Shown here: piece after piece, positions 1 to 62,997 of the stretch
Layout: every line of letters starts with the position of its first letter
Position numbering within the stretch: the stretch's first letter is position 1
Source: Castanea sativa
Lineage: Eukaryota; Streptophyta; Magnoliopsida; Fagales; Fagaceae
DNA length: 64,000 nucleotides
NCBI RefSeq assembly: GCF_040712315.1
Contig: NC_134016.1
Coordinates: 3,573,501 to 3,637,500 of the forward strand
Direction: 5' to 3'
The notes under the pieces: generated by a model
What the model saw: only the letters and a program-made list of their open reading frames with translations
What the model was told of the DNA's origin: nothing
The model's database searches: none
Program-made: the position numbers and the translations under genes

Positions 1-59
1 AAAAACGCTTAGAAAATTTTTCAAAAATCTAGGTTTTTGATTTTTTGGCTACTCATTTT

Positions 60-215
60 TGCAACTCATTCGCGAGTCGCGAGTTCATCCAGAGGCGTAC
101 GTGACTCACTGGCGAGTGGAAGTCCCAGTGAAAAAGACTTAGAGAAGTTTTTCAAAATCTTGTTCAAGAGATTTGGTGACTCAGTTTGGCAACTCACTCC
201 TGAGTCAGTTGAGTA
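60..215 (+). promoter_or_regulatory. CpG-motif cluster (GACTCGC / GCGAGTC) upstream of accessory ORF leader
   Basis: Short direct and inverted copies of ACTCGC, GCGAGT and close variants are packed here, with two imperfect repeats of about 120 bp starting near 1 and 130. The same motif is dense in the element's own LTR at 3640-3830. The cluster lies just upstream of the spliced leader of the accessory ORF, so it may be a promoter or protein-binding array. Function is inferred. Confidence 0.4.
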
Positions 216-400
216 GCGAAAAACGTATGTTTTGTACAAATAGGGTTAAAACTCAGATAGTTTTTCAAAAACTTTTCAATTTCCCTTGCATCACGTGCAT
301 ACCTCTTTGTCTTCTCTGCCTCTCCCTCCCTCAGAACCGTCATTTTCACTCCATAAACCTCCATTTTCATCTTCAATCTTCACTCAAACTCCAATAGAAG

Positions 401-1040
401 GTATGGGTTTTCACTTATTTTCACTCTATTTCAAGTTTATAGCCTTATTTTTCATGGATTTGTTGTTTGTGTTGAGATATTGAAATATGGTTGATGAACA
501 TGGGTTTTTGATGTTTTTGCTGAGATCGATATATAGGTTTTGTTGAGATTGATAGTATAATGCTTAGTTTACATGTTTTTCATGTTTTCATTACATGCTC
601 ATACATTATACTATGTTTTGTGTTGTGTTGTGCATATCATGTTGTTGATAAAATGTCTATTTAGATGTTTTTGTGTGTATTTTTGGACTCTATTGAGTAC
701 AAAAATTTTGGGGATAATCTTCTTTCCTTGCTTTGAAACATCAAATAATTATGAGTTTTCACACTTTGTCCCTTGCATGTTTTCATGCCCTATTTGCACA
801 CTTTTTCATATGATGCACACACACAAAATCTTTGACATGTTGAGTGTTTAGTGCCATGATTAAATCATGCTTTGATATTTAGCATCTTCACATGTAAATG
901 TTTTTTGAATTACTCTTTAAATTCTAGTTTTTAGGGTTTGATTCGTAGTGTATGTTTTGGGTACTAACTTGTTGCTAATCAAGTTTGTTGCCATTTGTTT
1001 TTCATCTTGCTCTTTGCTATTTCATGATCTTTGCTTGAAG
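401..1040 (+). other. Probable 5'-leader intron of the accessory ORF
   Basis: A pyrimidine-rich leader (about 300-400) ends in AAG followed by GTATGGG at 401. A T-rich stretch then ends in an AG at 1039-1040, directly before the ATG at 1041. The second Sirevirus-like element has the same arrangement (leader, GTAAGC donor, AG before the ATG), so a spliced subgenomic transcript is likely in both families. Confidence 0.45.
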
Positions 1041-2109
1041 ATGTCTCCTTTCAAAAATTCAGCTATGAAAGGAAGCAACAGTAAAGGAAAGGAACCAGTA
1101 ATTGATCTCAGTAGCTTCTCCCCTAAGTCGAAGAAAACTTTATCTTCGGCTGGAGTTTTCAATGACACTCGATTCAGATCATATGTCGCATATCAAGCAT
1201 ATTTAAACTGCTAAAGATGCTCCCATGGTGATTGAACGGGTTGTTGAGCAAGCTTCTCTTCTCGATACGAACATTCCCAAATGGTTTGCCTCTAAGGATT
1301 AGAACTACCTTCTATCAAATGTTGAAGATCCTTATGAAGAGCTTGTTAAAGAATTTTATGGAAATGCCCTCTTTGATGGGGATGAGCTAAGATGTTGGGT
1401 AAGAGGAAAGGACTTCACTGTAACGCCTTCCTATCTTGCTATCATTCTGAACATCAACCGACCAGTGCTTGTCAAAACACCGGTGTATAATGAGTTGGAA
1501 CTAGATCTTGACATTCTTCAAGATGCTTTCGGAAAAAAACTTGGAGGCATCCTTAAATGGGAAAGCAATCAGTCTGTCATCGTTGTCTCCCGAATTGAGG
1601 TTGCTCACTACAATAATGTTTCATAATCTTTATCCTCTCTCAAGCACCGAACACATGAATCTTGGTCGGGCTCTATTTCTTCATGACTTGATTACCGATA
1701 AAGAAATTGATGTTTGCTCTCATCTCATATGGCCTCTAGGAATTGTCTTCCATTTTGTTACCTCATCGCAAAGATATTGAAGCTAAAAGGAGTACTAACA
1801 TTGGAAGATGAGTATCCTCATCCCAAGCAAAGACCAATCAACATCAGCACTCTCAATGCTATAATAGGCCATAGTCGAAAGAATCCTAAGCAAGAGAGTA
1901 ATGCTCCTCAAGGTGATACAAGCTCTAGCTCACACTTCTATGATGAGAAGTTGGACAACATCATGGCTTCCGTGCAAGACATCGGCACAAAATTTTTTGG
2001 CCTCACATTTATCATGCACTCTCAGCACATCCGCTTTGACTTAAAGTTTACCTCTCTCCAAACTCAATTGGATCAAATTCAAAGGAAGCTAGAAGAAGGT
2101 GATGACTAG
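1041..2109 (+). pseudogene. Accessory 'putative plant transposon protein' ORF, frameshifted
   Basis: The reading starts at the ATG at 1041 with a Ser/Lys-rich N-terminus. It is broken by a frameshift near 1207, an in-frame stop near 1301, further shifts around 1535 and 1735, and it ends at the stop at 2107-2109. The C-terminal part (about 1930-2105) is a heptad-like helix with LDQIQRKLEE at its end. It is collinear with the ORF at 60218-61402: a Ser-rich start, a globular middle with YLAI-type and LP-type segments, and a short coiled-coil tail. Proteins like this are annotated in plant genomes as 'putative plant transposon protein' (Transposase_32-like) and have no proven biochemical role. 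In Sireviruses this position is sometimes occupied by an env-like ORF; no signal peptide or membrane segment is evident here. Confidence 0.6.
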
Positions 2110-3488
2110 CTCCATGACAAAAAGGGGGAGAAAGGGTGTTCATGATAGGGGAGAGCAATGATAGGGGGAGAGAGAGCTAAATCAAAAAGGGGGAGCAATG
2201 CAATGCAAAAGCAAGAAAATCAAACTACAACAACAAGCCTTTCCATTTTCTTCTTTTAATGCTACTACTAGTCCATGTTCATATTTCATAGTTTAAGCTT
2301 ATGTTGTTACTTAACAATATTTATTTTGTACCTTTGTTTATGTAGCTTAGTATTTATAGTTAATGTGTTGCATTTTCTTAAGTACTCTTGTGCTCTTGTT
2401 GGATCCTGTATCCTTGATGCAATTGCTTTAGTGTTCTTGCATCGGTTGAGTGTTGGACATGCAAATATACTTTGCATTGAGCTTATTAGCTTACATATCC
2501 GGATGTTCATTCACCGTGTGAATGTTCATTGTGATCACTATTGTACGAGGCTAGGCCCTGGGGTCATTGGGCCTTGGACCCTAGCCTTATGGCACCATAC
2601 GGGGCAGGGCCCCAGGCCTATTGGGCCTTGGGCACTAGCCTTCAGATACGACACTTGGCCCTCTCCCCTTTGGACTTATGACCTTGATCCGGACACCTCT
2701 TGAGACCCAATATGAGCCCAAAAATGGTAACGGGACCATTTTGCCTTGAAAGTCAAAAGTGAGCCCCTCCTAATCAATCTTAACTTGACCAGGGTGCGTG
2801 GTTGCTTGGCAGTATGATGTCTCTACTTCCTGGTATTGCTTTAGGGAATATCACTGCCGAATAGTCTTTTAGAGATGGGAACCAGTTCCAATGCCATTAC
2901 CATCGTCCTTGACAGAGCACCCACTTAGAAACGATGGAATTGGACCACCATCAGAAGGTAATCATAACACCTCCACTTATCTCCAACTATAATTAGGAAA
3001 GTAGAGTAAGAAATAAGGGGTTGGCAAGGTGAAGAAAAGAACAAAGGAGAGAAAGAGAGAGAGAGGTTGTAAAATCAAGAGAGCATAGCTAGGTCTCCAA
3101 GCTAAGGACTACCTAATATAGAAAATCCAAAGCCTATAATACAAATAAGTTGTGAGCCCAAGTATAGATTAAGCTTGTTAATTGTACTTTGGGTGCCCAC
3201 AACTATTTATAGTGATTGTTCTTGTATGGTCAAGTTATGCTCTATTGTCATATTCATACTTGCTTGATTGTATTGTGCTTGCTCTATATGCTTTCTCAGA
3301 TTTCTGCTTACAATGAACTTAATGAGTGCATTTTGTGATATTGTTTTCAGAAAACTTATTCATATGGTTCAAGAGCTTCATAGTTCTAGAGTTAGGTGTG
3401 AGTGAGTTTTGACAACTGTTCCTAACTCACATTTTTAAGTCTAGAGTCTGTTTTAGGATTTTGTCACAGAATAGCCAAAGGGGGAGAT
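2110..3488 (+). other. Noncoding 3' region of the Sirevirus-like element with polypurine-tract array
   Basis: No coding signal. It contains at least four AGGGGGAG tracts at 2117-2195, a GC-rich duplicated stretch at 2545-2645 (two copies of a motif around GGGCCTTGG), a GA-rich run near 3050, and the final polypurine tract directly before the LTR. The extra tracts match Sirevirus biology, where several precede the functional one. Confidence 0.5.
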
Positions 3489-4574
3489 TGTAAAGTTGAA
3501 CTTATTCAACTATGTGTTCGCTTTATTCTATGCCAAATTTTCTTGTAATTCAGCATTTCGAAACTCTATATTTAGGTGGGAATGATGTAAGGATTCTGTG
3601 TGAGAGAGTGTGAAGAATTGATTAAGTGTGTGTAATCAAGAGGCAACTCGCGACTGACTCGCAAGTAGTGACTCGCCAAAATTTGTCACACGTGTGGAGC
3701 ATGTAGGAAGTTGAAGGGTCAGGACAGCTAAATCACTACAGGACAAAAAGTACAGTTTGACCATTCTGTTAACTGGCGACTGGAACTCATGACTTGTCCT
3801 AGTCGCGAGTGACTCGCCAGTACACCCTGTTTTGTAGAAAAATAACTTTTCACATTCCTTCTCATACCCTACTATAAATACCCTTATACCCACGAAATGT
3901 AGAGAGCTTCCAGAGAGAATTTTGAAAGATAAAACCTAAAGAATAACAAGATTGATTCATCCACAATCTTATACATTTGATTCTCCAAATTCCTCTACTC
4001 TCGCCCTTTCCATTTCATACTCTTAAGAGGATCTTTAGCCAAATCCTTATCTCACCATATTCATATCATTGAGAAGGTTTTTGGTGTTTGGGAAGCAGTT
4101 CAAGAGAGAACCAATTCATTTTGGTTCATGCAATGGGCTTATTGCAGGATCTAGTAAGTTAGAAAAGACAAGGTTAGGCGTAACCTTGTTGAAGTAAGAA
4201 GCTTGGAGGGCTTAGGTGCATTGGGTAGATTAGGCTTGGAAGGTCTATTGCTATTTATGTATCCCAATTGATTTTCTTGTGAATCATTTTACCATTTGGA
4301 GGGCGGTGAAGAGGCTTTTCGTCGAGTTCTTTAGTTTCCTCTTCAATAACACGTGCCAGTGTTATCTTGCGTTTGCTTCTCTCTATCCCTTACTCTTTGC
4401 TATTGATTACTACTGTGTTGTGATTAAATTATGGCTTAGAGTAGTTTGCATGTTTGGGTATAGCTTATATTTATCATTCTGCACATATATTGTTTAAGTA
4501 TAAGCTTGTGTTGGTAATTTTGTAATTGGGGGTCTAAACATTCACTAGTGTTTTACACACTAAGTGAGCTTTCA
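3489..4574 (+). repeat. 3' LTR of the left Sirevirus-like element
   Basis: It begins TGTAAAGTTG immediately after CAAAGGGGGAGAT. It contains a dense GACTCGC/GCGAGTC cluster (3640-3830) and a TATA-like ACTATAAATAC at about 3870. The start is well supported by the polypurine tract. The end is uncertain because the partner LTR is outside the window. Confidence 0.55.
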
Positions 4575-4803
4575 AAATCAATCAAGGAAACAAATTGTGC
4601 ATAATACCCTTTTTTTCCCGTTAAGTGGGCACCTACTATTATTAGACTATTTGTGTTACTATTATACATGTGTAGGGAAAAAAAACATAAAACTTTCCAT
4701 ATCCTTCTAATTCTAATAGTTTTGAACATGACTAAAATTGTTTATAGTCATGATAACAAAATTTTCCACGTTAATAACTCGCAACCAGAATGCTTATAAT
4801 TAC
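4575..4803. other. Spacer between two retrotransposons
   Basis: AT-rich DNA with no gene. Its last five bases (4799-4803, ATTAC) are the left target-site duplication of the gypsy element that follows. Confidence 0.7.
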
Positions 4804-5462
4804 TGATAATACGAAGAAAATCAGTAGGCTGGATGCTTCGGACTTGAAAGGACTACTTGCTCTTTCGATGGCCTGGAAAAGAAAGAAAAGCGATCAAAGG
4901 TGACCGGGGTTGCCGGCCAAGAACCCTCCGATGGCAAAGTTAGTTTTCTCTCTATATTTTCGGAGTTCCAACTTTTTAGGAAATATAAAACATACCTTTT
5001 TCTGGTTTGAATGGGTGTTTATATAGTGTCCTAGGAACAGTTATTGGGCTTGTAACCTCCCCTGGATTTGAGGAGGTGCGAGGGTTCAAGGATAACTTCC
5101 ACAACCGTTTAGGAGTTATATTTTCTCATATAACGGTCACCGGAAGTTATGCGTATATTACGGAGTGGTGACATGTACTCAAGAATTTTTCGAAGTGTAA
5201 AGGGCTCGTCCAGGGGTCCTTTTGTTGTATATACCTTGCTTCTAAAGGAGGTTGTTCCTCTTATGGACGAACCCCTTCAGGACAGGGTTGATAGCTTTCC
5301 TAGGAAGAGTAGATGCAGTTGTGCCAAATTTGACTGCGGGTGTGTTTTCGTCTATGGATGACCATGGACGTTAGCCTCGTCCTAGTGCTTTCTTTTGGAC
5401 GACTGCTGGTGTGGATGACCATGGACGGTCTTAAGTACTTTATTTTTCTTCATTCCTCATCA
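4804..5462 (-). repeat. 3' LTR of the Tat element (left copy)
   Basis: 659 bp, the same length as 14413-15071. It carries repeated CTCGTCC/GGACGAG motifs (for example near 5208, 5265, 5378, 5396). On the minus strand it follows a short purine stretch, GAAGGGGC, likely the polypurine tract. Confidence 0.9.
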
Positions 5463-5693
5463 GTTGCCCCTTCATCCAGGGGTCATTCAGCATATCACTA
5501 AACTTCAGGACGAGTTTTCCAAGAACATTGTTATTATTATTATTTTATTTTCTATTTTATTTGTTTTTCAGACAGCGTACCATGTGTCATGCTTTCATAG
5601 GTGATTGGTCACATCGATTTACCTCCTCGAGGTAGATGCCACGTGTCGCTTTCTCATTGGTCTCGTCATTATGAATACCGAGACTTCTCTACC

Positions 5694-5701
5694 TATAAAT
5701 A
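5694..5701 (+). promoter_or_regulatory. TATA box of the antisense accessory gene
   Basis: TATAAATA at 5694-5701 in a plus-strand setting: about 180 bp upstream of the first coding exon and followed by a pyrimidine-rich leader. It lies inside the retrotransposon but outside the LTR, so the accessory gene seems to have its own promoter, opposed to the LTR promoter. Confidence 0.55.
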
Positions 5702-5872
5702 GTGGTTTCCCTCTCGTGCCCCTCTCATTTTTTCAGATTTTCTATTTTGACACTTCTCGTCTGTCGCCTCGTCTAGGAGTGTTCTCAGCGTCCTTAGTAT
5801 CTTTCTTCTAGAGCCAGGTATTCCCCTTACTCTCACTCTCAGGCTTTCCTTTTTAAGCTTTAGGACGTCTGA

Positions 5873-8021
5873 AATGGCTATCGTGATTCTTCTAGCTGTA
5901 GCACTTCCGGTAACGATAGTAGTAGTAGTAGTGGCCACACAACGGAGGAATATACCTTTAGTGTTCCTGGAATTCCTGCTGAAACCTTACAAGAAAATCT
6001 TAGGATAAGGGCAGCCTTTGGAGCTGGTACCTCGACGAGCGTCCCGCCGTCCTCCCCTTTGGACGAAGAAGAAACTGTGTATAGTTGTGCTATAGAAATT
6101 CCTTCTAAGACGGACGAGAAGAGGTTAGACGCTCTTAGGAGTTGGTTCCAAATCCCAGACGATCTGAATCCTAGGTTAGCCGTCCAAGGGGAATGGTGTT
6201 GCCAACCCCGTTTAGGAATAGGTATTTACGAAGCTTATTTGCTAGGGAGGCTTAGATTACCTTTAAATGCCTTCGCTAGAGAATTACTCACTAGGCTGGG
6301 CTTGGGAGTTTGTCAGTTTAACCCCAACGCGTGGAGACTTATTGCCTCTATACAGGTCTTATGGAGGGAGGTATTTAATGGGAACCGTCCTATCACCGTG
6401 GACGAGTTTCTGTACTGTTATAAATCCTCTGAGATAAGTCAATCTTTAGGTTTTTATCAATTCACAACTAAGGGCAATGACTGTAGGTTGATTAAGTCTT
6501 TGCCTTCGTTTGACAAAAACTGGAAGACATAATTTTTCTTTGTCTCTAGTTTTTGGGCGAGGCATCCTATCGAGGTTGGTAGAGATGCATTTGCCCCTTA
6601 TACTGGAGAGTTAGGGAACCTTCGTCAAGAAGGTATGTTATGTTTTTCCTTCATTCTCTTTTTATTTGTTTTGTTATATTTTATCTTTAGACAGTTGTCT
6701 AACCTTAATTTTCCTCTCTTTTCTCAGCTGTTAGACGTCCTTCTCTAAGTAATTTTCACCGTGACCGCGTCCACAGAGCTCGTCTACACTTCGAGAGAAA
6801 TTTTCACTCGTTGGTGACTCTTCGACGCTTGCACAAGTGGGGACTTGGCCCTAATCCATCTGCTGAAGCCCTTGCGCACGAGCAAACTGTCCGTAGACGT
6901 GAGTGTTTTTCTTACTTGAATTTTGAATTTTTTTTAAATATATATATATACACATATGTACATGTATTTTTCAGGAATGACAACCATGAAAGAAAACAAA
7001 GGGAAGGAAGTGATTGACGAGACGACCAGGCTTGAAGTTTAATCTCAGCCTCATCCTATCGCTGGAGACAAAAGGAAAAGCTTGTCCAAAAACTTGGACT
7101 TGGGAAGCTTACCCAGTCGTCGGGGGAAGAAGACCAAGCATGGGTCGTCTAGGCCTGAAACTGCTAAGTCTGACACTCCTTCCTCTTTGCCGTCCATCAC
7201 AGTCGTTGATGTTGACTTGTCTACGCCCGTTGGCGTTACTCTGTCCAAAACCCATGCTCCCACTTCGTCCGAGCCTCCTCAAAGGATTTCTATGAACTTA
7301 CTGGAGAATAAGGATTTAGCCTGGGAACGATTTCAAGAGGCTGTAACAAGTGAGGACGTGGCTGCGTGCTACGATATGTCTTTGAAGGAGTTTGAGCATT
7401 CCGGTGTCCACGATCTTTTTAAGGTGAGCATCTTTGTCTTGTCTTGCTTTAGCAATATTATCTATTGTCATTTTTATCTCTTGAACCTTTTTGTCTTCTA
7501 TGTAGGCAATGTCGAAGTTCATTGCTACGTCCAGGCAGGCCACAAAGGTGGACAAGATGAGGATCCTTCTCGAAAAAAGAATAGAGGAGATTAAAGACGA
7601 CTGCAAAACTTAGGCTGAGGTGGCGAATAAGGCCAAGGACGAGGTTAAAGGGTTGAACACTTTAGTAGGAGAGCTGAAATCTAATGCTGCTAAGAAGGAT
7701 GATCGTCTTGACTTTTTTTAAAAGAAGAACGACGAGCTGAGTTCCCTTCTCAAGAAGGCTAAAGATGATGCAGTGGAGGAGTTCAAAGCGTCCAAGGAGT
7801 TTACCAACCTACTGGACACCAACTATGCAGCAGGGTTTGAAGATTTCAGAATGGATGCTATAGAAAACTTTCCTGGAGTTGACTTTGGCACTATTAAACT
7901 CAACATTGGCACTGCTACAAGTTCTCTCCTCCAAACAGGCTGAGACGATGTTAATATTGAGGATGATGCCACTACAAAGCCATCTCAGGATGACCCCAAT
8001 GTTGATGCCCTTCCTTCTTGA
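5873..8021 (+). pseudogene. Antisense accessory gene of the Tat element ('putative gypsy type transposon' protein), four exons, broken
   Basis: Four exons join in frame: about 5873-6632, 6728-6898, 6975-7423 and 7506-8021. The introns start GTATGT, GTGAGT and GTGAGC, and end CTCAG, TTCAG and TGTAG; the phases match at every junction. Exon 1 encodes a Ser-rich N-terminus, then a globular domain (WFQIPDDL, LGRLRLPLNAFARELL) of the type annotated as 'putative gypsy type transposon' (PF04195). Exons 2-4 give a Lys/Arg-rich linker, then a helical, probably coiled-coil part and an acidic tail. The ATG at 5874 is one base out of frame with the rest. In-frame stops interrupt exon 1 (about 6530), exon 3 (about 7040) and exon 4 (about 7612, 7720, 7940). 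Such antisense extra ORFs are described for Tat elements; the function is unknown. Confidence 0.75.
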
Positions 8022-9057
8022 AGACGAAATTTTTAACTTAGAATGCTATTGTTGTTTTGTTTTTCTTTTGGTTTGGTCCATTGTTTTTTGGACCCTTATT
8101 AAGATGTATTTGAGTACAATTATCTCGTCCAGAGTGTTCTGGACGAGTTTATTAACAATTGTCTTTTAAGGCTTATTTTGTAAGGGTTTTTGGACGGTGG
8201 TCATCTACCCTCTTTAGACTTTAATGAATATTTACTTTTATCCATTATTTATTGTATGGACGAGTTTATCCACTATTTTCACCATTAATGTCATTGGTTT
8301 TTAAACAGTCTGTGTTCTAAGTGTTAAATGGTCGTCCATGTGATTTTCTTATGGACGACCCACCTAAGCATGGATGTCTTTGTTAGCCAGTCAAATCTTT
8401 ACAAGTGTAACTCGTCTTAGGACGACAATGATGACTTCGCCAGTCTTTTACCTCGTCCTTTGGGCAATTATCACTCGTCTTCTTGCAAGACGCTTATAAT
8501 GTTTCACTCATCCTAAGACATTGAGGCATCTTGGCTAGATGCTCGTCTTTGGAACTTTATGCTTTAACGTATGCCTTTTTCTTGTCTATCTACTTTTTAG
8601 ACGAGTATGCCTTAGCTTTTTTTTTTACTTTATCCTCATTTCGAGGAAAGCTTAGACAAGTATGCCTTAGCTTATTATTTTTTTTTATATATATCCTCAT
8701 TTCAAGGAAAGCTTATGAACGTTACATCCATGCGTCCAGAGATTTTCATTCGTCTTAGGCTTTTGCCCCTCTTGTGGGTATCATTATGGAAACTAGATTT
8801 ATATATTAAATATATTAGAAATCCAAACCATATTATTGCATGAACATTGTCCACAAATATGGCACGCTTAGAAGCTGGTGCCTTATTAGAATACTTAAGA
8901 AAATACATAACCTCGTCTTTCACAAACTGGTCCGTAGACGGTGCAAAAGTTTAAGAACTAGTGCACTTTTTATTCTTAATACACACCATAGTAGTAATAA
9001 GAACACAACAGTAGGTATAAGTAAACACATAGACCGTAGTTGTAGCTGTCCATAGTA
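8022..9057. other. Intergenic part of the Tat element between accessory gene and integrase
   Basis: No credible coding sequence. It is notable for very frequent CTCGTCC/GGACGAG and related CGTC/GACG words, several as inverted pairs (near 8128-8150, 8330-8360, 8412-8425). It presumably holds the 3' ends of both converging transcripts. Confidence 0.6.
8605..8715. repeat. Tandem duplication, about 55 bp, two copies
   Basis: Units 8605-8659 and 8660-8715 both run from GTATGCCTTAGCTT through a T-rich stretch to AGGAAAGCTTA. They differ mainly in the T/AT run. Confidence 0.8.
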
Positions 9058-12000
9058 TCAACCTCGTCCCTGGACTATTTCGTCCAAGTTCATCACTAAT
9101 AGTACCTCCTTAGGTGTTCCGCGTTCTAGGAGTGCTCTAACTTTCGTCTGTCCAGGGCCTCCAGGTAGTATGACCCCTGCCTCTTGCAATTGATTACCCT
9201 GTAAGGTCCCTCCCAATTGGGTCCCAATTTTCCATGAGCTTGATTCCTAGTTGCTAAGGAGACTCTTTTGAGAACAAGGTCCCCAATATTGAATCATCTA
9301 GGTTTTACCATGGCATCATGCTGCCTAGCCATAAGATTCTTGTATCTTGCTTTCCTTTACTCCGCATCCATTCTTACCTCGTCAATAAGATCGAGGTCAA
9401 GACGAAGTTGTTCCCCATTCTCTCTCTCCTGATACTTCATCACTCGATGATTAGCCATATGAACTTCTGTCAGTATGACGACTTCACTTCCATAGGCTAG
9501 CTTAAAGGGGGTCTCTCCTGTCAGAGTTTGTACAGGTTTCCTGTAGGCCCAAAGAACACCTGGTAACTCGTCTGGCCATATCCCTTTTGCCCCCTCGAGC
9601 CGAGTCTTGATGATTTTCAGCAGGGATCGGTTCGCTACTTCTGCTTGTCCATTCGCCTGTGGATGGGAGGGTGAGGAATAGTAATTCTTGATTCCAAAAT
9701 GTTTGTAAAAGTCCCTCAAGGATGCGTTGTCAAACTGACGTCCGTTATCTGATATTAGTACCCTGGGTACTCCGAACCTACATAGAATATTCTTCCAAAC
9801 AAAATTTTTAACATTTTGCTGAGTGATTGTTGCAATAGGTTCGGCCTATACCCACTTGGTAAAGTAATTGATCCCTACTACCAAAAACTTCATTTGTCTA
9901 GTTCCCATGGGGAAGGGACCTAGGATATCCAGTCCCCATTGTGCTTTAAGGGCCATGAGCCATCATTGGGGTTTGATACTCTGACGGCTGTCTAGGGACA
10001 TTGCTATAGCGCTGACACTGGTCACATACCTTGACATAGGCCTTAGCATCTACCTGCATTGTAGGCCAATAGTAGCCTGCATGGACGACCTTATGGACTA
10101 GTGATCTCGCTCCTGAATGATTCCCACATGCTCCTTCATGAACTTTCCTCAAAACATAGTTTGACTCATCCGGAGCCAAGCACCTTAGGTAAGGTTGGGA
10201 AAAACCTTGCTTGTACAGCACTTCGTTTATGAGGACGTATTTGGCTACCCTGACCCTCAACTTCCTAGCTTTGTCCTTGTCTTCTGGAAGCCTTCCATCT
10301 TTAAGATAGATTACTATTGGACTCATCCAATTTTCTCCCTCTTCTATCTGTTGTATGTCCGAAAAGTCTATGCTTGGCATATATTGGACGTTGTCGTACT
10401 CGTCCGTAACTCCTCCTGTCGAAGCTGCTTTCGCCAAGGCATCTGCTTCCATATTTTCCTCCTTGGGGAGTTGAACAAAACTTATTGCTGAAAACTTTCG
10501 TGCAAGTCGTTTCACTTTGCTGAGGTATTTCTTCATCCGATCTTCCTTGGCATCACACATTCCATTTACTTGGTTGATGACTAGCTGAGAATCTCCTTTG
10601 ACTATTATCGACTCTGCCCCTAAGGACTTAGCCAATTCCAGTCCTTTGAGTAGAGTTTCATACTCAGTCTCGTTGTTGGTGGTTTGATACTATAGACGGG
10701 CCGTGTACTCCAGCTTATCACCCTCTGGGGACTTTAGTATGACTCCAATCCCTCCTGCATATAGTGTGGACGATCCGTCTACATTAATAACCCACCTTTC
10801 AACTCCTTCGTCTTTGTCCAGCTCATTCTGGCTGGGGGTGAACTCTGCAATGAAATCTATTAATGCCTGTGCCTTTATCGTGCTCCTTGGAAGGTATCTG
10901 ATGTCAAACTCGCTAAGTTCCACAGCCCACTGTATTAATCGTCCAGCGGCTTTCAACTTGTTCATTGCCTTCTTTATGGGATGATCTGTTAGGATGTTGA
11001 TAATATGAGCTTGGAAATAATGCCTCAGCTTCCTAGAAGCCGTAATCAAGGCAAAAGCTAGCTTCTCCATCATCGGGTATCGTCCTTCCGCTCCTCTCAT
11101 CGTATGGCTTGTGTAATAAACTGGTTTCTGGATTTTCCATTCTTCTCTGACCAACGCCAAGCTTACTGCGTGTGGGGACACCACCAAATACAAATACAGC
11201 TCTTCTCCAGGTACAGACGAACTCAACAACGGCGCTGTCATGAGATATGTCTTCAAGTCTTGGAAGGCCTTTTAACACTCGTCTGTCCACTCAAATGCCT
11301 TCCTGAGGACTTTAAAGAATGACAAACACTTGTCAGTAGCTTTCGACACAAACCTGTTAAGGGCAACAACTCGTCCGGTAAGAGACTGGACTTCCTTGAT
11401 ATTTTTCGGTGGTTCCATATTCAGTATCGCCTGGATTTTTTCCGGATTCGCTTCAATTCCTGTGCGAAACCATGAACCCCAAAAACTTCCCCAACGAAAC
11501 TCCTAAAGCACACTTGCTTGGATTTAATTTCAAGTTATACCACTGAAGTGTATTAAAAGTCTCTTGAAGGTCGTCCAGATGATTTCCCTCGTCCAGGCTC
11601 TTTACCAGCATATCATCTACATAAACCTCCACATTTTGCCCGATTTGAGGACAGAACATGTGGTTAACCAGTCTTTGGTAAGTCGCCCCTGCGTTCTTCA
11701 AACCGAAGGGCATTACTTTGTAGCAATACAACCCTTGGCTTGTAATGAATGAGGTCTTTTCTTGATCCACCTCGTCCATCTTTATCTGGTTGTAGCTTGA
11801 GAAGGCGTCCATGAAACTCAGCAACCTGTGACCTGCCATTGAGTCCACCAGCTGGTCAATGCGTGGTAATGGGTAACTATCCTTGGGGCAAGCTTTGTTT
11901 AAGTCAGTAAAGTCCATGGACATTCGCCACTTGCCATTAGCTTTCTTCACCATGACTACGTTTGCCAACCAATCTGGATAATAAACTTCTCGAATGAACT

Positions 12001-12817
12001 CTGCGGTAACCAACTTCTAGACTTCTTCCTTGATGGCATTGTCTCGCTCAGGAGCAAAAACCCTCTTCTTCTGACGCACTAGTTTGGAATAGGGACACAC
12101 GTTCAGGCTGTGAGTAATAACACTTGGATCAATACCAGGCATGTCTTCATGACTCCATGCAAAGATATCGAGACTTTTCTTTAAAAACTGGACCAAAGCA
12201 TGCTTTACCTCTTCTTCCATGCTCTCCCCAATTCTAATGAACTTCTCAAGCCTGTTCTCGTCCAAAGGGACGCCTTCTAACACCTCAGTGGGTTCCGCTG
12301 CAATCCTTCTCTCGTCTATACTCATTGCCTGTATATGCTCGTCCATCGCCAGCATGGCTAGGCAGCACTCTCTAGTGGCCAACTGATCTCCTTGTACTTG
12401 GCCCACTCCGTGCTCGGTCGGGAATTTGATGGACAAGTGGTAGGTAGAGGTTACCGCCTTCCAACTATTCAGAGTCGGTCTTCCAATCATTGCATTATAT
12501 GACGATGCACAATCAACAATAAGGAAATTTACCTCTTTGGTTATCTGCTGTGGATACGCTCTAACGACCACTAGTAATGTGATGGTGCCCACTAGTTGCA
12601 CCTTCATTCCTCCGAATCCTACCAATAGCGAATTCACTGGTCGAAGCTGATCTCGTCCTAACCTCATTTGCTGGAAGGTGGGGTAATACAAAATGTCCGC
12701 AGAACTACCATTGTCTATCAACACCCTCCTAGTCATGTAGTCAGCAATGAGTAGGGTGATGACTATCGCGTCATCGTGTGGGTGGTGAAGTCGTCCTGCG
12801 TCCTCGTCTGTGAACAT
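9058..12817 (-). pseudogene. Tat-type pol: protease, RT, RNase H, second RNase H, integrase (degenerate)
   Basis: Reading leftwards: an aspartic protease with the DNGSS active-site motif (near 12710). RT follows with LSFMDAFSSYNQ and the catalytic YVDDM (about 11605). Then comes an RNase H of the usual gypsy type. A second RNase H has INVDGSS, NETEYE, GDSQL and ADALA, the four acidic positions expected of an archaeal-like RNase H. Integrase has the HHCC-type zinc region (HEGACGNHSGA ... CDQCQR), DDE-core pieces (LISDNGRQFDN, then SSPSHPQANGQAE) and a C-terminal WEGPYRV motif. In-frame stops lie near 12017, 11453, 10690, 9946 and 9357, with frameshifts around 11450-11260 and 9900. It continues the gag frame across most breaks, so the ancestor was a single gag-pol reading frame. 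Not functional. Confidence 0.88.
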
Positions 12818-12874
12818 AATGGCCTGCTCGTCTACTTCCCTCGTCTTAGGAGGTCGTCTAGATAGCTGGATGTT

Positions 12875-14323: not shown

Positions 14324-14395
14324 TCAGCCTTTTGTTTGAGAAAGGCTAATCGTTGAAAACAAAACAGATAATCGAACGAAAAGAACAGTGATTTC

Positions 14396-14411
14396 CCACA
14401 GACGACGCCAA
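14396..14411 (-). other. Primer-binding site of the Tat element
   Basis: On the minus strand the sequence one base inside the 5' LTR reads TGGCGTCGTCTGTGGG. This is the form found next to the 5' LTR of many plant gypsy elements, usually TGGCGCCGTCTGTGGG, where the 3' end of a host tRNA primes reverse transcription. One C-to-T difference is consistent with decay. Confidence 0.75.
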
Positions 14412-14412
14412 C

Positions 14413-15071
14413 TGATAATGCGAAGAAAATCAATAGGCTGGATGCTTCAGACTTGAAAGGACTACTTGCTCTTTCGATGGCCTGGAAAAGAAAGAAAAGC
14501 GATCAAAGGTGACCGGGGTTGCCGGCCAAGAACCCTTCGATGGCAAAGTTAGTTTTCTCTTTATATTTTCGGAGTTCCAACTTTTTGGGAAATATAAAGC
14601 GTACCTTTTTCTGGTTTGAATGAGTGTTTATATAGTGTCCTATGAACAGTTATTGGGCTTGTAGCCTCCCCTGGATTTGAGGAGGTGCAAGGGTTCAAGG
14701 ATAACTTTCACAACCGTTTAGGAGTTATATTTTCTCATATAACGGTCACTGGAAGTTATGCGTATGTTACGGAGTGGTGACATATACTCAAGAATTTTTC
14801 GAAGTGTAAAGGGCTCGTCCAGGGGTCCTTTTGTTCTATATACCTTGCTTCTAAAGGAGGTTGTTCCTCTTATGGACAAACCCCTTCAGGACAGGGTTGA
14901 TAGCTTTCCTACGAAGAGTAGATGTAGTTGTGCCAAATTTGACTGCGGGTGTGTTTTCGTCTATGGACGACCATGGACATTAGCCTCGTCCTGGTGCTTT
15001 CTTTTGGACAACTGCTGGTGTGGATGACCATGGACGGTCTGGAGTACTTTATTTTTCTCCATTCCTCATCA
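14413..15071 (-). repeat. 5' LTR of the Tat element (right copy)
   Basis: Matches 4804-5462 over its full 659 bp. The right target duplication ATTAC follows at 15072-15076. Confidence 0.9.
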
Positions 15072-32763: not shown

Positions 32764-32811
32764 TGTTTGTAATGGTAGTTTATTATCATTATGATGTGCT
32801 GTTTTTTTTAT

Positions 32812-33290: not shown

Positions 33291-33512
33291 TGTTAGTTGT
33301 AAGGTGTAACGTATTAATTTTTTAAGGTTAGCGACCATGTAGAAATTTGTTTGAGTTTAAAAATTTGTTTATAGTTGTTTAAAATTTTTTTTAAGGTTAG
33401 CAACCATGTTATCTTTATATTTTCCTTGAGGCAATATTTGTAGTTCATATCGAATAAATGTGTTATATTTGTCACTAACTTTCAGTAAACTTATTTGACT
33501 TGTAGGCTTGTA

Positions 33513-45200: not shown

Positions 45201-45208
45201 CCTTAGGT

Positions 45209-45501: not shown

Positions 45502-45591
45502 CCAAAAAGAGTCCAACTTACTAATTAAGTTTGAACGCATGCTTTCGTCCTAAAATTTTTTCCATTCTGTACTGTTTCCCAAATTTTGCCT
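45475..45591 (-). repeat. Right terminal inverted repeat of the MULE
   Basis: Inverted counterpart of 31966-32082. It ends CCCAAATTTTGCCT before host DNA CTGGTTGTC. Confidence 0.92.
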
Positions 45592-55332: not shown

Positions 55333-56340
55333 TGTTAAGACATATGTGTTTCACTTATTTAGAACATATGTCATTCATTATTTATGTAATTGGCTAATCC
55401 TTTGTCAAAACGTACTTTACTTGTAATTGGGTAGATTTAAGATGAGGTTAATGCTTCAAGAAATAAGGTTTCAAGATCAAGTGTTAAAGCCATGCAAGTC
55501 TATCCAAGAAACAAGATTAAAATTGCTCTTCATTAAAGCTTGACAGCTGGCTCGACAGCTGCATCTATTGAGTTTTAAGAAGTTCTCGACAGCACCTCGA
55601 CACCTTTAGCTGTTGAGATTTAAGAAAAACAGATTCTGAGTTCTGTTTTAATTCTAATATGTGGATGTGTTTTTGGGCCTTCTTTTCTTCTAACCCTAGA
55701 CATATAAAAAAATTATTTTAAAGGCCGTCAAAATGTGGAAAGTTGCACAAGCATTGAGAAATCCTTATTTATGCGAATTGTAACTTGAGACGAAGTTCTT
55801 GCTCTAGTTCATCTTTCTTGTGAAGAAGTTGTTGTGTCTTTGCACCGTTGGGTTTTGTAACCGAGCATCTTCTTGATCTTCATCATGTGGATGAATTGAA
55901 GAACTTTGCAACCAACAATCTTCTCTAGTTGGTGATTGAAGTTGCGTACTGGGATCCGCACAATTGGTTAGTCACGTACTTGGGAGCCGTGCATCAAAAG
56001 GAGAAACTATCACTACAGAACAAGTTCAATTGGGTATTGGGGTAATGGTTCAACTGTACGTTGGTAAGGTACTTGGGATTTCTTTACTTGTAACCACTTG
56101 TTGTGATAATAGTGGAGTTTCAGGAGTGGTGACCTTAAAATCACCCGGTGGGGTTTTTGCCGTGTAGATTTTCTCCATTCGTAAATAAATCACCGTGTCA
56201 TTTATTTTCCGCTGTATACTTTAGTTTATTGGTGGTTTGTTTGTGTTACCACGCTTTGCATGTTAATTTGATTAATTAATAAACTTGGCTAATTAATCAA
56301 TTAATCCATCACAAGGGGTCAATACGTTTTTGGCCTATTA
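55333..56340 (+). repeat. 5' LTR of the right Sirevirus-like element
   Basis: 1,008 bp. It differs from the 3' LTR by scattered substitutions and by lacking about 26 bp (present at about 62215-62245) between two short AGTT/CAGTT copies, a typical slippage deletion. It carries CTCGACA/TGTCGAG-type motifs at 55548-55620. Confidence 0.92.
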
Positions 56341-56342
56341 AG

Positions 56343-56354
56343 TGGTATTAGAGC
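56343..56354 (+). other. Primer-binding site (initiator Met tRNA)
   Basis: TGGTATTAGAGC, two bases inside the 5' LTR. One change from the canonical TGGTATCAGAGC found in Ty1/copia elements. Confidence 0.88.
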
Positions 56355-56409
56355 AGGCACACTCTGATTAGGGTTTATTTTTGTGTGTGATCCATTGACC
56401 CTATTTTTC

Positions 56410-58100
56410 ATGGATAGAGATCAATCTCTTATTATACCTCCATTGTTTAATGGTACTAACTATGCATACTGGAAAGTACGCATGAGAGCTTTCTTGCAGT
56501 CTCTAGATGAGAAGGTGTGGCAAGCTGTGGAGATAGGCTGGACCAAGCCTAAAGAAGCACCGGCCGATTGGGATGAAGCCAAGATCAAGGCAGCAAACTT
56601 CAACAGCATAACTTTGAATGCCTTATTTATTGTGGTCACTAATGAGGAGTTCAAGAAGATATCTTCCACTAAAACTGCTAAGGAAGCATGGACCATCCTC
56701 TAGACAACCTATGAGGGAACAAAGGCTGTCAAAGATTTGAAGCTACAAAGACTCACAACAAGCTTCGAAGAAATTAAGATGGAGAAAGATGAGTCATTTG
56801 ATGAGTTCTATGCCAAACTCAAGGACATAGTGAACTTTCAATCTTGGAGAAACCATTCCTGAACCCAAGATTGTGAGAAAAGTGCACAGATCTCTGCCCG
56901 AGAGATTCCATGCCAAGATCACGGCGATAGAGGAATCAAAGGATATTGATAAGATTCCTCTAACTGAGCTAGTTGATAATTTGCAAACCTATAAGTTAGG
57001 GTTGACAAGAATTGGCAAATCGGGAAAAGGCAAGAGCATGGCACTAAAGGCCAAGAGCAATGAGACAGACGAGTCATCAGACGATGAAGACTCTAAGATG
57101 AAGTCCTACATCACTAGGCAATTCAAGAAATTCATGAAAAATTCCAATGGAAAAGGCTTCGACAAGGACCGTAGGCAATCTAGTTCTTCTCAGTTCAAGA
57201 GCCAAGATAAAGGGAAGAAGGATGCTAGGGATGACGGTCAGTACACTATTCCCGCAGGACCCAAGTGCTTCAAATGTCAAGGCTTCGGTCACATGAAACG
57301 GGAGTGTCCCACATATCTCAAAAGCATTGGGAAAAGCAAGGCAATTGCTACTACTTTGAGCGACACTGAGCCTAAGGACGATTCCGACAACGAGGATGAC
57401 AGAATTTTAAATGCCTTCACTACCACTGTCAATCCTACTGAAGGGATTGTTGAAGATATGGATGAAGAAGAAGAATTGGAGGAATCCAAGTTTGAAAAGA
57501 TAGATGATCAAGATGATATCCATACAGCCTATGAGAAACTGTACAAGCTCTCTGAGAAGTATGAGAAACTCTATAGGCTAGCCACCAAGAAACTCAGTGA
57601 TGTGGAACTTAACCGTGAGGAACTTTCCACAAAGTTTGATGAAGCTAATCAAACTATTGGGGCACTGAGATTCGAGAATAATTTCTTGGCTGAGAAGATC
57701 AAGAAGCTTGAAGCGGAACTGTTTCAAGTTAGAGCTCAATTGGAGAGGGCATCAAATGCGAAGCTGGATGAGATGCTCAGCATTCAAAAATCTACTTCTG
57801 ATCGAACAGGATTAGGGTATGAATTCTCTTTTTCTAATATTGCTTTTGCTAGTACCACTGTTTTTGTTCCTCCTGCTAATAATATTAAAATTGAGAACAA
57901 TGATGTTAAAACTGAATTAGCAAATGAGAACCTAGACAAGGGTAAATCTATTTTAGGAGCAACCCTAAGCTTGAGAAGAAGGACACTAAAAACCCTAGGA
58001 CTAAGAAGGCTAACTCTCAAAAGCCTAAACAGAAAAAGCAGCATTTCTGTCATCATTATGGTATTGTTGGTCATACTCGACCAAATTGCTATAAGTAGTT
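56410..58100 (+). pseudogene. Ty1/copia gag, broken
   Basis: The ATG at 56410 opens DRDQSLIIPPLFNGTNYAYW, the DUF4219/UBN2 gag start. It is cut by a TAG at 56701-56703 and a frameshift near 56838, resumes with IPEPKIVRKVHRSLPERF, then a basic stretch and a CCHC knuckle CFKCQGFGHMKREC (about 57268). An acidic linker and a long coiled coil (about 57520-57780) follow. A last frameshift near 57963 precedes a second knuckle-like CHHYGIVGHTRPNC. The gag would form virus-like particles. Two zinc knuckles and a coiled-coil extension are unusual compared with a short copia gag, but large Gag is described for Sireviruses. Confidence 0.85.
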
Positions 58101-59676
58101 AGCCACTTAACAGAGCAATGGCATGATAGCATCTGGGAACCAGAATTAGCTTCAAACCTCTCTTGCTCCTCTTGGAGATCTTCTCAAAACTCTCATGTTC
58201 CTTTCGAACTTGAACAGTTTCAATCCTTCCCCCTCATCACCGGTTCAAGGGTTTGCTAAGAGGAAAGGTTCTTCCAAGGTGTGAAAGGAAAAGAGTTCCA
58301 AGTGATTTATTCACTTTTTCTCTCTCTCCCCTTCTTGTTTTTGTTTTTGCATTACTTGTGTATTTTGCTTTAATGTTTTGAGTCAGTCTAGTTTTATGCA
58401 TTATTTTACCTTGTTTAACATGTTTTTGTTTGTGTGTTTTTAGTTTTGTTTTATTTTGTTTTTCAAATAAAAAAAAATACAAAAACAGTGTGTGTATATG
58501 TACATCGGTTCTTGTGAACCTTAAAATGGCCATTGAAACAGAGTTTTCTAAACTTTGTATCTCTTGTAGCTTAGATGAGCATCTCTATGCACAACTAAAT
58601 AAGTGAGCTTTGTGGCTCTTTGTTTGTGATGAGTAAGGTTAAGTGATCTCTTGAACTTAACACTCATATCACTTTTTTTGACAGGTAGGACTAGAAAATC
58701 CTAAGAGAAAGGCATAAATAATCATCTCACCACTGTTACCCGCCAATCATGATATGACATCTGTATGCTTCAGCATAACAAAAGTGCAATGTCAAAAGCT
58801 TAACATAATTGGGTATTTCTTTTCTCTCCTTTGTATACCCATGCATGATTTGCCTAATAAAAAGAAAATATGCAAAGAAAATAAAAGCAAAAAGAACAAA
58901 ATGCTTTAAATATGATTGCAAGCATGTTTTCTAGGAGATGTAAGAGTTATAGGATGTACCTCAAAGGTGATAGTCCCCATCAAACAGTTATGATTGTGTG
59001 TGAGTTAAAGCGATTTTCTCATATCTCAAATCGTCATAACATAGAGACACTTATGCAATCTTGCGATGTTTTCACACACAACACGCAATATTCTTTGCTA
59101 CTTTTGATACATGTGCATATACAATGTGATTTGGCCATCATAAGGTTTACATACGTTGATGTATACTCACTAAATTGTCTTGACTTGTTTTTGAAATATA
59201 AAATCGATTAGACTTGTTTAGTGTGTGAGTGCGTGTTTTGAGATCCATGTGCTTAAGATTGTTGTTGAGAGATGATTTTGAGAATCTAATATGCTGATTG
59301 GATTATTAGTTAAGTTGCATGCGTGATTGCATTCATGTTTGTATTTTTCCATTCTTGAAAAACTGTTTTGAAAAGTTGGCTAGACACCTCCTCGACACCT
59401 CCTCGATACCTAGCTGTCTCTCGAGCTTCTCAACTTTTTCTTATCGCAATCTTGATAGTTTCTTGACACCTTCTAGATCGATCGAGAAACCTCCTGTCTT
59501 CTCGATAGCTTCTCGACACCTAGTGGATCGATTAAGCATCTGTTCTCGTGTCCTGTCTTGTTCCTCGACACCATCTCGATAACTGTATCTATCGAAGTTG
59601 TATTTCTTGACACTTACCTCGACAGATGTCTCGACACCTCTCAATACCTGTATCTGTCGGGATTTACTGATCTACT
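58101..59676. other. Noncoding spacer where pol should be, with CpG-motif cluster
   Basis: No pol motifs. 59380-59660 contains about eight TCTCGACACC/CTCGATA-type words and inverted TATCGAG/CTGTCG words, the same motif set as in the LTRs (55548-55620 and 62163-62275). The cluster lies just upstream of the leader of the accessory ORF. Confidence 0.7.
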
Positions 59677-60217
59677 ATTTAAAGGTTCTGTGCGATCCGT
59701 TTCTCATTTTTCTCGATCTCTCTCTCGATAGCACCGTCTTTTCATCTTCCAAATCTCTCTCTCTCACTCCAAATCCATTTCTCAAGGTTTCTCAAAGCTT
59801 CATCGAGTTTTTCTTCACTTGGTAAGCTTCTTATCTCTCATTCTACATGCATTTCATGTTTTTGAAACCTAGGTTTTGGGGTCTTTGAAAAATTTTGAGG
59901 TTTTTCAAAATTGATGAGTTATTGTTGAAATTTTTGGGTTAAGTTTTGTAGTTTTGATCTTAAAAACTCCATTCATTGCATCACATTAGCATTCTCACAG
60001 TATTCTCATGCATTTAGATGTGTGCAAAATGTTTGTGTGCTAGTAGGATTGGATTGGGTTGAGCCCATGATGTCTTTCATATTGCATGTCACATGTTCAT
60101 GCATTCCCCATGCGTACGTTCTATCTTTTCAATATACTTATTATATTTGAATTGTGTTGAAACTTTTCTGAGTGTATCTTTTTCCCCCCTCTCTTTCTGT
60201 TTGCGTTAGTAGTGTCT
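59677..60217 (+). promoter_or_regulatory. Leader and intron of the accessory ORF
   Basis: A TATA-like CTATTTAAAGG (about 59673-59683) is followed by a pyrimidine-rich leader. A donor CACTTG|GTAAGC at 59822 and an acceptor TTTGCGTTAG ending at 60209 follow, eight bases before the ATG at 60218. The intron is 388 bp. This suggests an independent spliced transcript, as in the left element. Confidence 0.5.
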
Positions 60218-61402
60218 ATGGCACCAAAACGTAAGTCTATTCTGACTTAGAACCCTCTTCGTTCTAATGCCTCTTCATCTTCTGATTCCACTCCTCTTTC
60301 TATTCGTTTCCGTGATGAGAAAGCCCATCATGACTTCTCGGAGAACTTCTCTAAATAAGGTTTTCATTCAGAACGCCAAGTTGTTCTGGCAAACTTTGCC
60401 GACACTGACCTTCTCGATGTCTTTCAAAAACGGGAATGGGAGTCACTGTGTGACGTCCCGGTCACTTGTCCTTCCGTGCTGATCCAGGAGTTTTACTCTA
60501 ACATGCATGACTTCGATTATTCAGTACCTCTCTTTCTCACTCGCGTTCGAGGTACGCGTATAATTCTCACACCGGAGTTAGTATCCGATGTGCTCCATGT
60601 TTCGAAGGTTGCGCATCCTGACTACCCTGGTTGTGAGCGTCTGCGGACTGTGTCCAAAGATGAGATGATTACCGCTTTTTGTAAGTGCCAGTCTGATTAG
60701 GATAAGCACCAGTTTACGTCATGTTGACCTTTTGCTAAAGGTCCTCGTTTCTTAAACATGATGATGACTTTTGTCTTACATCCTCTCTCTCACTACAACT
60801 CTATCATAGAGCCTCGTGCTTGTTTTCTGTTGTCTCTTATTGAGGATCTTACCATTGACTTTCCTTCACATTTCATCTTTTCTATCATAGATGTGTATAA
60901 GGATACGGCTACCCGTGATAAGCTCATCTTTTCTTTCGCTATCACGAGGATCTTACGCCATTTTTCCATTCTTTTTCTTGTCTCTGACCATTTTCATGTC
61001 ATGGTTGCCATAGATGCCGCTACCGTAAAACGTAGTGAGGCATAGCTTAGCTCGCGTCAGACAAGTTCAGCAACTCCTTCCTCCCGTTCCTCTCCATCCA
61101 GATTTGCTCGTGTCTCATCTGCTCCCTCCTCTTCTACGAGCGATGTGTCATTAGGAGACATCATGGCGCAGCTTCAACGCATAGATGTTCGCCTGGATAC
61201 GCTCTCTACAGAGTTGTATCAGGTGAATGTTCATGTTGGTCGCATTGCTAGGCAACAGGAGACCATGGGTGGTTTTGCTCTCGAGATTTCTCCTCCACCA
61301 CCTTCTGTGGCTTCCACATCTGGGGATGATGATGGTGATAACGATGATGCTTTGAATAATGATGGTGGAGATGCTAGCTCTACCGATGAGATGTCTACTT
61401 GA
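60218..61402 (+). pseudogene. Accessory 'putative plant transposon protein' ORF, five internal stops
   Basis: A single frame from the ATG at 60218 to the stop at 61400-61402 (395 codons) contains internal stops at about 60248, 60356, 60698, 60726 and 61043 but no frameshift. Domains: a Ser-rich N-terminus, a globular core (LANFADTDLLDVFQKREWE ... YSVPLFLTRVRGTRIILTPE ... DVLHVSKVAHPDYPG; then LIEDLTIDFPSHFIFSIIDV), a Ser-rich linker, a short coiled coil (MAQLQRIDVRLDTLSTELYQ), and an acidic DDDGDNDD tail. The family is the Transposase_32-type plant transposon protein. Its function is unknown. No transmembrane or signal segment argues against an envelope role. The stops look like single-base C-to-T changes. 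Confidence 0.75.
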
Positions 61403-61426
61403 CACTCTACCCTTTGTCACTCGTGA

Positions 61427-61964
61427 CAAAAAGGGGGAGTAGTTTTGGGTTATAAGAGTAGTCATACTTAGGGGGAGAGCTTGTATAGGGACATCTTTTT
61501 TATAGGGGGAGTGTTGAGTGCTAAGGGATGTAGTGAGGATTATTTGTATCTTTTTCTTTTCTTTACTTTAGATACATATTCTTCTTGTACCTAGGTCTTG
61601 TGACCATTATTACATACATTGTGCTCATCTTTTTTATATATGTGATAATGTATGTTTATTTTACCTATCTTTACATGTGTTGTTTCTTTTCTCTCTTTAT
61701 ACACATGTTTCTTTATTTGTATACAATATATTATTTCTGTTTCACACTAAGATGCCTTGATGAGTTTTGTTTAAAGTGTTTCAGAAATACAAGTTGTCAA
61801 AATCTACTTGTCATAAACTCTCTTCTTGCAAAATTTTTCAAGAGTTTGTGTTAGAATAGATTTTATTGTATTCAACAAGTGAATATGAGTTGAGTGATTT
61901 ATGACTTCTCTCATATGTTCATTTGTTGGTTGTGGTTTTGTCACAGATTGCCAAAGGAGGAGAT
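61427..61964 (+). other. Polypurine-tract array before the 3' LTR
   Basis: AAAAAGGGGGAG near 61428, AGGGGGAG near 61471 and 61503, and the final CAAAGGAGGAGAT directly before TGTTAGGAC at 61965. Multiple tracts are a Sirevirus feature. The rest is T-rich and noncoding. Confidence 0.75.
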
Positions 61965-62997
61965 TGTTAGGACATATGTGTTTCACTTGTTTAGAACATA
62001 TGTCATTCATTATTTATGTAATTGGCTAATCCTTTGTCAAAACGCACTTTACTTGTAATTGGATAAATTTAGGATGAGATTAATGCTTCAAGAAACAAGG
62101 TTTCAAGATCAAGTGTTAAAATCATGCAAGTTTGTCTAAGAAACAAGCTTAGAAGTGCTCTTCATTAAAGCTCGATAGTTGGCTCGACAGCTGCATCTAT
62201 CGAGTTTTAAGAAGTTGTTCTAGCCCCGAGGTTCAACAGTTTCTCGACAGCACCTCGACACCTTTAGCTGTCGAGATTTAAGAAAAACAGATTCTGAGTT
62301 CTATTTTAATTCTAATCCGTGGATGTGTCTTTGGGCCTTCTTTCTCCTAACCCTAGACATATAAAATGATTATTTTAAGGGCCGTCAAAATGTGGAAAGT
62401 TGCATAAGCATTGAGAAATCCTTATTCATGCAAATTGTAACTTGAGACAAAGTTCTTGCTCTAGTTCATCTCTCTTGTGAAGAAGTTGCTGTGTTTTTGC
62501 ACCGTTGGGTTTTGTAACCGAGCATCTTCTTGATCTTTATCGTGTGGATGAATTGAAGAACTTTGCAGCCAATAATCTTCTCTAGTTGGTGATTGAAGTC
62601 GCGTACTGGGATCTGCGCAATTGGTTAGTCACGTACTTGGGAGTCGTGCATCAAAAGGAGAAACTGTCACTATAGAACAAGTCCAATTAGGTATTGGGGT
62701 AAGGGTTCAACTGTAGGTTGGTAAGGTACTTGAAATTCCTTTACTTGTAACCGCTTGTTGTGATAATAGTGGAGTTTCGGGAGTGGTGACTTTAAAATCA
62801 CCTAGTGGGGTTTTTGCCGTGTAGGTTTTCCTCATTCGTAAACAAATCACCGTGTCATTTATTTTCCGCTGCATACTTTAGTTTATTGGTGATTTGTTTG
62901 TGCTACCACGCTTTGCATGTTAATTTGATTAATTAATAAACTTGGCTAATTAATCAATTAATCCATCACAAGGGGTCAATATGTTTTTAGCCTATCA
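61965..62997 (+). repeat. 3' LTR of the right Sirevirus-like element
   Basis: 1,033 bp, homologous along its length to 55333-56340, with the TG...CA ends preserved. Confidence 0.92.

Follow-up and report, generated by a model that had tools for sequence, protein, structure and literature searches.

We describe a stretch of 64,000 nucleotides of the Castanea sativa genome (C4:3573501-3637500; the genome comprises 716 Mb in 13 contigs), referred to below as the window, in which several transposons carry repeated CpG-containing words. Our interpretation, drawn from sequence comparisons, is that these may well be several separately evolved, element-specific cis arrays, and that the dyads of a Mutator-like element (MULE) would be read by a DNA-binding protein of the element's own, the likeliest being its transposase. 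The arrays are real, and the MULE dyads and a dyad in the long terminal repeats (LTRs) of a copia-like element recur genome-wide, although several others are unexceptional in a test that does not fix the word in advance. The original prediction for this DNA, that unrelated transposons share a convention of pairing a private motif array with an accessory gene against silencing, is partly confirmed as an observation and partly supported as an interpretation, but its unifying reading is not supported: two of the four elements share gag and follow the published Sirevirus pattern, and a third, a Tat/Retand-like element, fits the published anatomy of Retand and has a word that is not confined to an array.

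The MULE dyads, the transposase and the PMD gene

Motif counts in the window were compared with dinucleotide-shuffle controls, from which all expected values are taken, and genome-wide dyad counts were set against the reversed motif. The MULE dyad is 25 bp long, AAGTCGAGT-N7-ACTCGACTT, and lies in front of both the transposase gene and a gene encoding a plant mobile domain (PMD) protein (coordinates of all features are collected in Table 1). The window has 17 AAGTCGAGT half-sites, all of them in the two end arrays, nine at the left (expected 0.01) and eight at the right (expected 0.02), with none in the 12.7 kb between them, and they are partly arranged as a ladder with 16-bp steps. Seven of the dyads are perfect, and the thirteen palindromes originally described are reached, in a count by eye, only if imperfect arms are allowed. 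The dyad occurs at 126 sites in the genome and its reversed control at none. The transposase frame, which is interrupted in this copy, has domain matches above the curated cut-offs to PF10551 (6.5e-18) and PF03108 (DBD_Tnp_Mut; 8.1e-09). Tandem repeats are also present, with 120-bp units before the transposase frame (32834-33286) and 40-bp CpG-bearing units before the PMD gene (45026-45180), as well as 205-bp units outside the MULE (30903-31313).

A genome search with the transposase gave 60 listed matches at 59 loci (the second piece of one locus was dropped), of which 19 belong to the MULE's own lineage, at 73-100% identity, and 40 others match at 50-58%; sister-lineage transposases are about 51% identical to that of the window. 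The sister form of the dyad, AAATCGAGT-N7-ACTCGATTT, is found at 2,349 genome sites (control 0) and in all ten sister loci counted (L044-L053), and dyads are present in 13 of the 19 own-lineage loci, the remainder being cut too short or lacking them. The dyad arms and the N7 gap are conserved between the lineages, and it is the spacer and position 3 that diverge: with every dyad counted in both orientations, 65 of the 96 own half-sites have G at position 3 (the AAG form) and 69 of the 72 sister half-sites have A (the AAA form). At C5:56912805-56940495, which includes locus L042, two stop-free MULE transposase frames with 54-58% identity to that of the window lie about 25 kb apart and are possibly domesticated; no dyads were found within the 5.3 kb of L042 (54% identity; outside the set L044-L053).

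The PMD gene travels with the transposase. Of 1,474 candidate PMD places in the genome 148 were scored, and among the matches listed a PMD lies within 25 kb of 38 of the 59 transposase loci (14 of 19 in the own lineage and 24 of 40 elsewhere), the other 21 having none within that distance; random placement of the PMD places gave a mean of 0.58 and a maximum of 4 in 500 runs, with the lengths of five contigs approximated. The arrangement is tail-to-tail in 35 of the 38 linked loci, the PMD being downstream on the opposite strand. PMD partners of own-lineage transposases are 76-100% identical to the PMD of the window and those of the other transposases 58-61%. Dyad clusters were checked against neighbouring transposases and PMDs on C1-C3, again among the matches listed; for seven of the eleven close PMDs there, an exact AAG dyad was found at a distance of 1.2-2.8 kb upstream, and the portion of C1 covered by the list has three PMDs of 60-63% identity, two of which are preceded by AAA dyads some 4.1-4.3 kb upstream. 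To judge by dN/dS values of 0.31, 0.34, 0.28 and 0.37 (four short comparisons, in which two subjects contain stops) the PMD is under purifying selection; transposase values among own-lineage copies lie between 0.03 and 0.87. The MULE lineages differ in motif variant, transposase and PMD together, the co-variation for which a check had been proposed, and by these comparisons the three look like one co-inherited set.

A sister lineage with arrays and without PMD was considered and rejected, since the fetched loci were too short and the genome-wide search placed a PMD near the 24 loci given above; around L054 and L055, two sister copies that were fetched further, no PMD was found within 9.4 kb. 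In 11 sister loci no terminal inverted repeats (TIRs) were found, although the fetched stretches may not reach the element ends. Forty PMD matches of 62-74% identity, none of them near a listed transposase, are perhaps a third lineage, and one of these, at C1:5998648, has AAA dyads 4.1 kb upstream. In Lithocarpus the PMD SO802_017657 (P0055) and the transposase-like SO802_017659 (P0175) have near-adjacent locus tags and lie on contigs of equal length, which hints at the same pairing there.

Candidate readers of the MULE array

The dyad comprises two AARTCGAGT half-sites whose starts are 16 bp apart, and it most likely provides binding sites for an element-encoded DNA-binding protein, possibly bound as a dimer. 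We favour the transposase, acting through its DBD_Tnp_Mut domain, because dyads lie inside the TIRs and the transposase possesses a DNA-binding domain. It would use the outermost dyad inside each TIR for end recognition, and may also use the dyads to control both promoters at the MULE ends; the PMD would then be a long-standing partner gene, a putative aid to expression or chromatin state. Nine of the 20 AAG-dyad clusters in the listed range of C1-C3 have no listed transposase or PMD nearby (the cluster at C1:54.10 Mb was counted as carrying both), as would be expected if short derivatives keep the ends that are needed in trans, though a count among the matches listed weighs little here. Dyads with the same spacer (TTTGACA or its complement) at C1:25128615, C1:59083911, C2:2356035, C2:4444789 and C3:35615895, which are likewise without a listed transposase or PMD nearby, are perhaps a short non-autonomous family.

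Several observations weigh against the transposase as reader of the ends. In L054 and L055 the array lies about 1-1.4 kb beyond the transposase match with homology continuing past it, so that in these sister copies an array beyond the 3' end of the transposase, as we read the alignments, is not needed for pure end recognition, and the same applies to an internal dyad cluster at C1:5366090-5385382. The lineage split is imperfect: 25 of the 96 own half-sites are of the A form, and sister loci L051 and L053 contain some G half-sites. The motif tracks the PMD as well as it tracks the transposase. A target-site duplication of about 9 bp is a hallmark of MULEs; the flanks of the window MULE differ, as judged by eye, and none is seen, though an old copy may have lost it. 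Because both genes are co-inherited, the proposal that the accessory protein binds the array cannot be separated from binding by the transposase. Internal arrays, and arrays before both genes, are compatible with a function in regulation or chromatin, and the PMD stays a candidate.

It is unlikely, in our estimation, that the MULE and its PMD form an anti-silencing system like that of VANDAL elements and their VANC proteins, in which the PMD, alone or with the transposase, would act at the dyads to remove or block DNA methylation. Such a system would suit arrays 5' of both genes, the dyads upstream of close PMDs on C1-C3, the PMD linkage and the dN/dS values reported above, and the position of the sister arrays in non-coding DNA within the element, as described for VANC motifs (PMC5735166); the idea was also voiced by Ikeda et al. 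(PMC5418596). However, DNA binding by the PMD is here putative, and the VANC21 motifs are described as non-palindromic and in one orientation (PMC5735166), whereas those of the MULE are dyads. Nor do the arrays convincingly retain CpG in excess, as the persistence of CpG words had been taken to indicate. Of 120 MULE half-sites 100 are intact, versus 458 of 560 kept-or-decayed transposase CpGs (p=0.79); retention in the left copia-like LTR is 61 of 88, against 75 of 135 cells, with a nominal p=0.049; and in the Tat element it is 19 of 27 versus 106 of 210 (p=0.065) or, in the other direction, 17 of 20 versus 108 of 161 (p=0.13). CpG retention was rejected as evidence of protection on these values, although protection of the whole element would escape such a test. 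Any anti-silencing by the MULE PMD is inferred. Also quite unlikely is the larger proposition that a Fagaceae MULE lineage has independently evolved a second VANDAL-like counter-silencing system, in which a PMD co-diverging with the transposase and the 25-bp dyad would turn a host silencing domain, directed by sequence, against silencing.

The arrays could instead all act as enhancers or silencers to which host transcription factors bind and which the elements exploit, with no element protein reading them. Sirevirus boxes are reported to be mainly sites for stress-related plant factors, dyads being common in retrotransposon activators (PMC2829016), but the lineage-specific base changes in the MULE dyads accompany divergence of the transposase and PMD within a single host genome, and the 2,349 and 126 exact dyads stand against controls of zero; we regard this explanation as improbable.

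The copia-like and Tat/Retand-like elements

The two copia-like elements are not unrelated, as had been supposed, since pieces of their gag align at 61%, 46%, 41% and 31% identity; the 5' LTR and gag of the left element were located upstream of the window. Direct comparison of their extra open reading frames (ORFs) gave a best E-value of 0.041. Both elements seem to be without pol, the gaps from gag to extra ORF (about 2.1 and 2.4 kb) being too small for it, though no pol search was made.

Table 1. Transposon features of the window
Feature	Position	Strand	Remarks
Left copia-like element, internal boxes upstream of extra ORF	1..260	+	Series continues from upstream of window
Left copia-like element, broken extra ORF	1303..1780	+	Two pieces; Transposase_32 (PF20167) 3e-05, below curated cut-off
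Left copia-like element, 3' LTR	3487..4575	+	GACTCGC/ACTCGCGA dyad boxes at 3648-3680 and 3774-3821
Tat/Retand-like element	4802..15071	- (gag-pol)	LTR ends by eye; CTCGTCC over entire element
Antisense ORF	5873..6529	+	Transposase_28/TRP28 (PF04195), E 9e-05, 23.1 bits versus curated cut-off 26.2
Fifth LTR (so named in the original prediction)	15615..17104		TACGCA words
MULE	31966..45591		117-nt TIRs 31966-32082 and 45475-45591, 96% complementary
MULE left dyad array, AAGTCGAGT-N7-ACTCGACTT	32056..32442		First dyad within TIR; upstream of transposase ORF
MULE transposase frame	33489..35768	+	PF03108, PF10551; ends in stop, similarity continues beyond
PMD gene	42516..44068	-	PF10536; two scored exon pieces 42516-42983 and 43298-44068
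MULE right dyad array	45213..45501		5' side of PMD gene; last dyad within TIR
Right copia-like element	55333..62629	+	LTRs begin at 55333 and 61965; gag piece at 56834-58102; pol not evident
Right copia-like element, internal CTCGACA/CTCGATA array	59383..59731	+	Upstream of extra ORF
Right copia-like element, broken extra ORF	60359..61042	+	Transposase_32 at 2.1e-08 and 2.8e-07, below curated cut-off

In the right copia-like element the array was found where it had been described, in the LTRs and upstream of the accessory ORF, with CTCGACA/CTCGATA present three times in the 5' LTR, six times in the 3' LTR and nine times in 59300-59780 (expected 0.08, 0.10 and 0.24), and not at all in 56171-59299. 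Its LTR dyad, CTCGACAGCTGNNTCTATCGAG, occurs 245 times in the genome against none for the control. Among the sites listed, at least four pairs on the same strand are separated by 6.67-6.71 kb; the LTR spacing in the window is, by eye, 6.63-6.66 kb, and because these spacings are so near one another the short form of the element seems itself to have multiplied. Tandem units of 120 and 106 bp lie beside the element at 54491-54947. The array ascribed to the left element holds for the LTR, where GACTCGC is enriched (3, expected 0.04), but window positions 1-260 contain a single copy (expected 0.02, p=0.024 before allowing for word choice); related words carry on upstream of the window. Exact GACTCGC occurs 3, 2, 1, 2, 2, 0, 1 and 1 times in eight copies of this LTR, the losses being partly of the CpG type. 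The boxes of both copia-like elements would be promoter boxes of the LTR that recur ahead of a second promoter driving the extra ORF, on the model put forward for Sireviruses.

The word CTCGTCC is indeed enriched in the Tat element, with 24 copies in 10.3 kb (expected 0.70), but it is dispersed rather than set as an array beside the accessory gene. Eleven copies lie in the gag-pol coding stretch 9300-14200 (expected 0.43), and CTCGTCC/TCGTCCA occurs in several codon frames and on both strands, coding DNA included. A second Tat copy (L056) has 25 copies in 9.9 kb, eleven of them in its long frame. Synonymous-codon shuffles of that frame gave 2.9 and at most 7 in 200, and codon bias was rejected as the whole cause. 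TCGTCC is exactly kept between the two copies at 12 of 27 sites, mildly above the 39 of 113 for CpG 6-mers of the same composition, and selection on the word in coding DNA is unsupported by this comparison. The antisense PF04195 ORF has the position (between pol and the 3' LTR) and strand seen in Retand, its match being below the cut-off, and TRP28 is a candidate reader of the dispersed word.

The words above were chosen before they were counted, and in a second test the top CpG 7-mer of each stretch was compared with shuffles without fixing the word. Both MULE ends and the whole Tat element are still exceptional (reached by 0 of 500 or 100 shuffles), as are the right copia-like internal array (p=0.002) and 3' LTR (p=0.008). 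The left LTR (p=0.066), the left internal stretch (0.66), the right 5' LTR (0.052), the Tat 5' stretch (0.26) and the fifth LTR (0.13) are within the shuffle range; the cluster reported for the last of these stands as a count of five TACGCA (expected 0.38). That several arrays are unexceptional in this way, that some sister MULE arrays resemble local tandem duplications, and that codon make-up alone accounts for 2.9 of the 11 words in L056 would all suit arrays that are functionless by-products of tandem duplication and composition. We consider this very improbable, since the MULE arms and N7 gap are conserved across lineages about 50% diverged and the Tat count exceeds every synonymous-codon shuffle.

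Between the Tat element and the MULE, and on the plus strand, a plant NLR-type gene (Rx_N, NB-ARC, winged helix, LRR) occupies 19746-23111 as two abutting frames with one in-frame stop between them.

Relationship to known systems

For the LTR elements, most of what is seen is already contained in published descriptions of Sireviruses and Retand. The LTR of Sireviruses is described as carrying palindromic CpG boxes particular to each element, with further boxes ahead of an extra gene (Bousios et al., 2010; PMC2829016). Of 79 linker box copies 77 lie upstream of ENV, four elements that lack ENV are without linker copies, and 12 of 13 boxes have a CGG-CCG core (PMC2829016). The copia-like elements of the window resemble them in having palindromic boxes at both places, but their words are of the CTCG/CGAG type (CTCGACA/TATCGAG and GACTCGC) with no CGG-CCG core, the extra ORF matches Transposase_32, and pol is seemingly absent, subject to the reservation made above. 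Retand, as reported by Vicient (2025; PMC11963269), is a gypsy element with gag-pol and an antisense PF04195 ORF (TRP28) between pol and the 3' LTR; this ORF's product is proposed there to bind DNA and to act in regulation, and tandem arrays are family-specific. The Tat element has, in the matching place, an antisense ORF whose PF04195 match is below the cut-off, and it differs in the short word dispersed over its whole length, of which there is no mention in the accessible portion of the published account (PMC11963269).

The MULE is the case in which array, transposase and PMD are kept together in one lineage, by which the idea of self-protection becomes testable. If transposase, PMD and dyad do cooperate, this single genome would provide a natural comparison, between diverged lineages whose arrays differ at known bases, in which to ask which of the proteins is the reader and whether a host silencing domain has been turned by transposons against silencing. 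The TIRs of Mutator are reported to contain transposase binding sites and promoters (PMC3310237), and PMDs have been described on MULEs, as transposase fusions in grasses and Amborella, with anti-silencing offered as speculation (Ikeda et al., 2017; PMC5418596). The chestnut PMD is by contrast a separate gene, mostly tail-to-tail, and no PF10536 domain was found among the 70 listed transposase relatives. In VANDAL elements, lineage-specific short motifs in non-coding DNA are reported to vary along with the element protein (Hosaka et al., 2017; PMC5735166); the chestnut MULE arrays are likewise lineage-specific and non-coding, although the VANC motifs are direct and in the same orientation, whereas the MULE has dyads and, in place of VANC, a gene that matches the PMD domain in Pfam.

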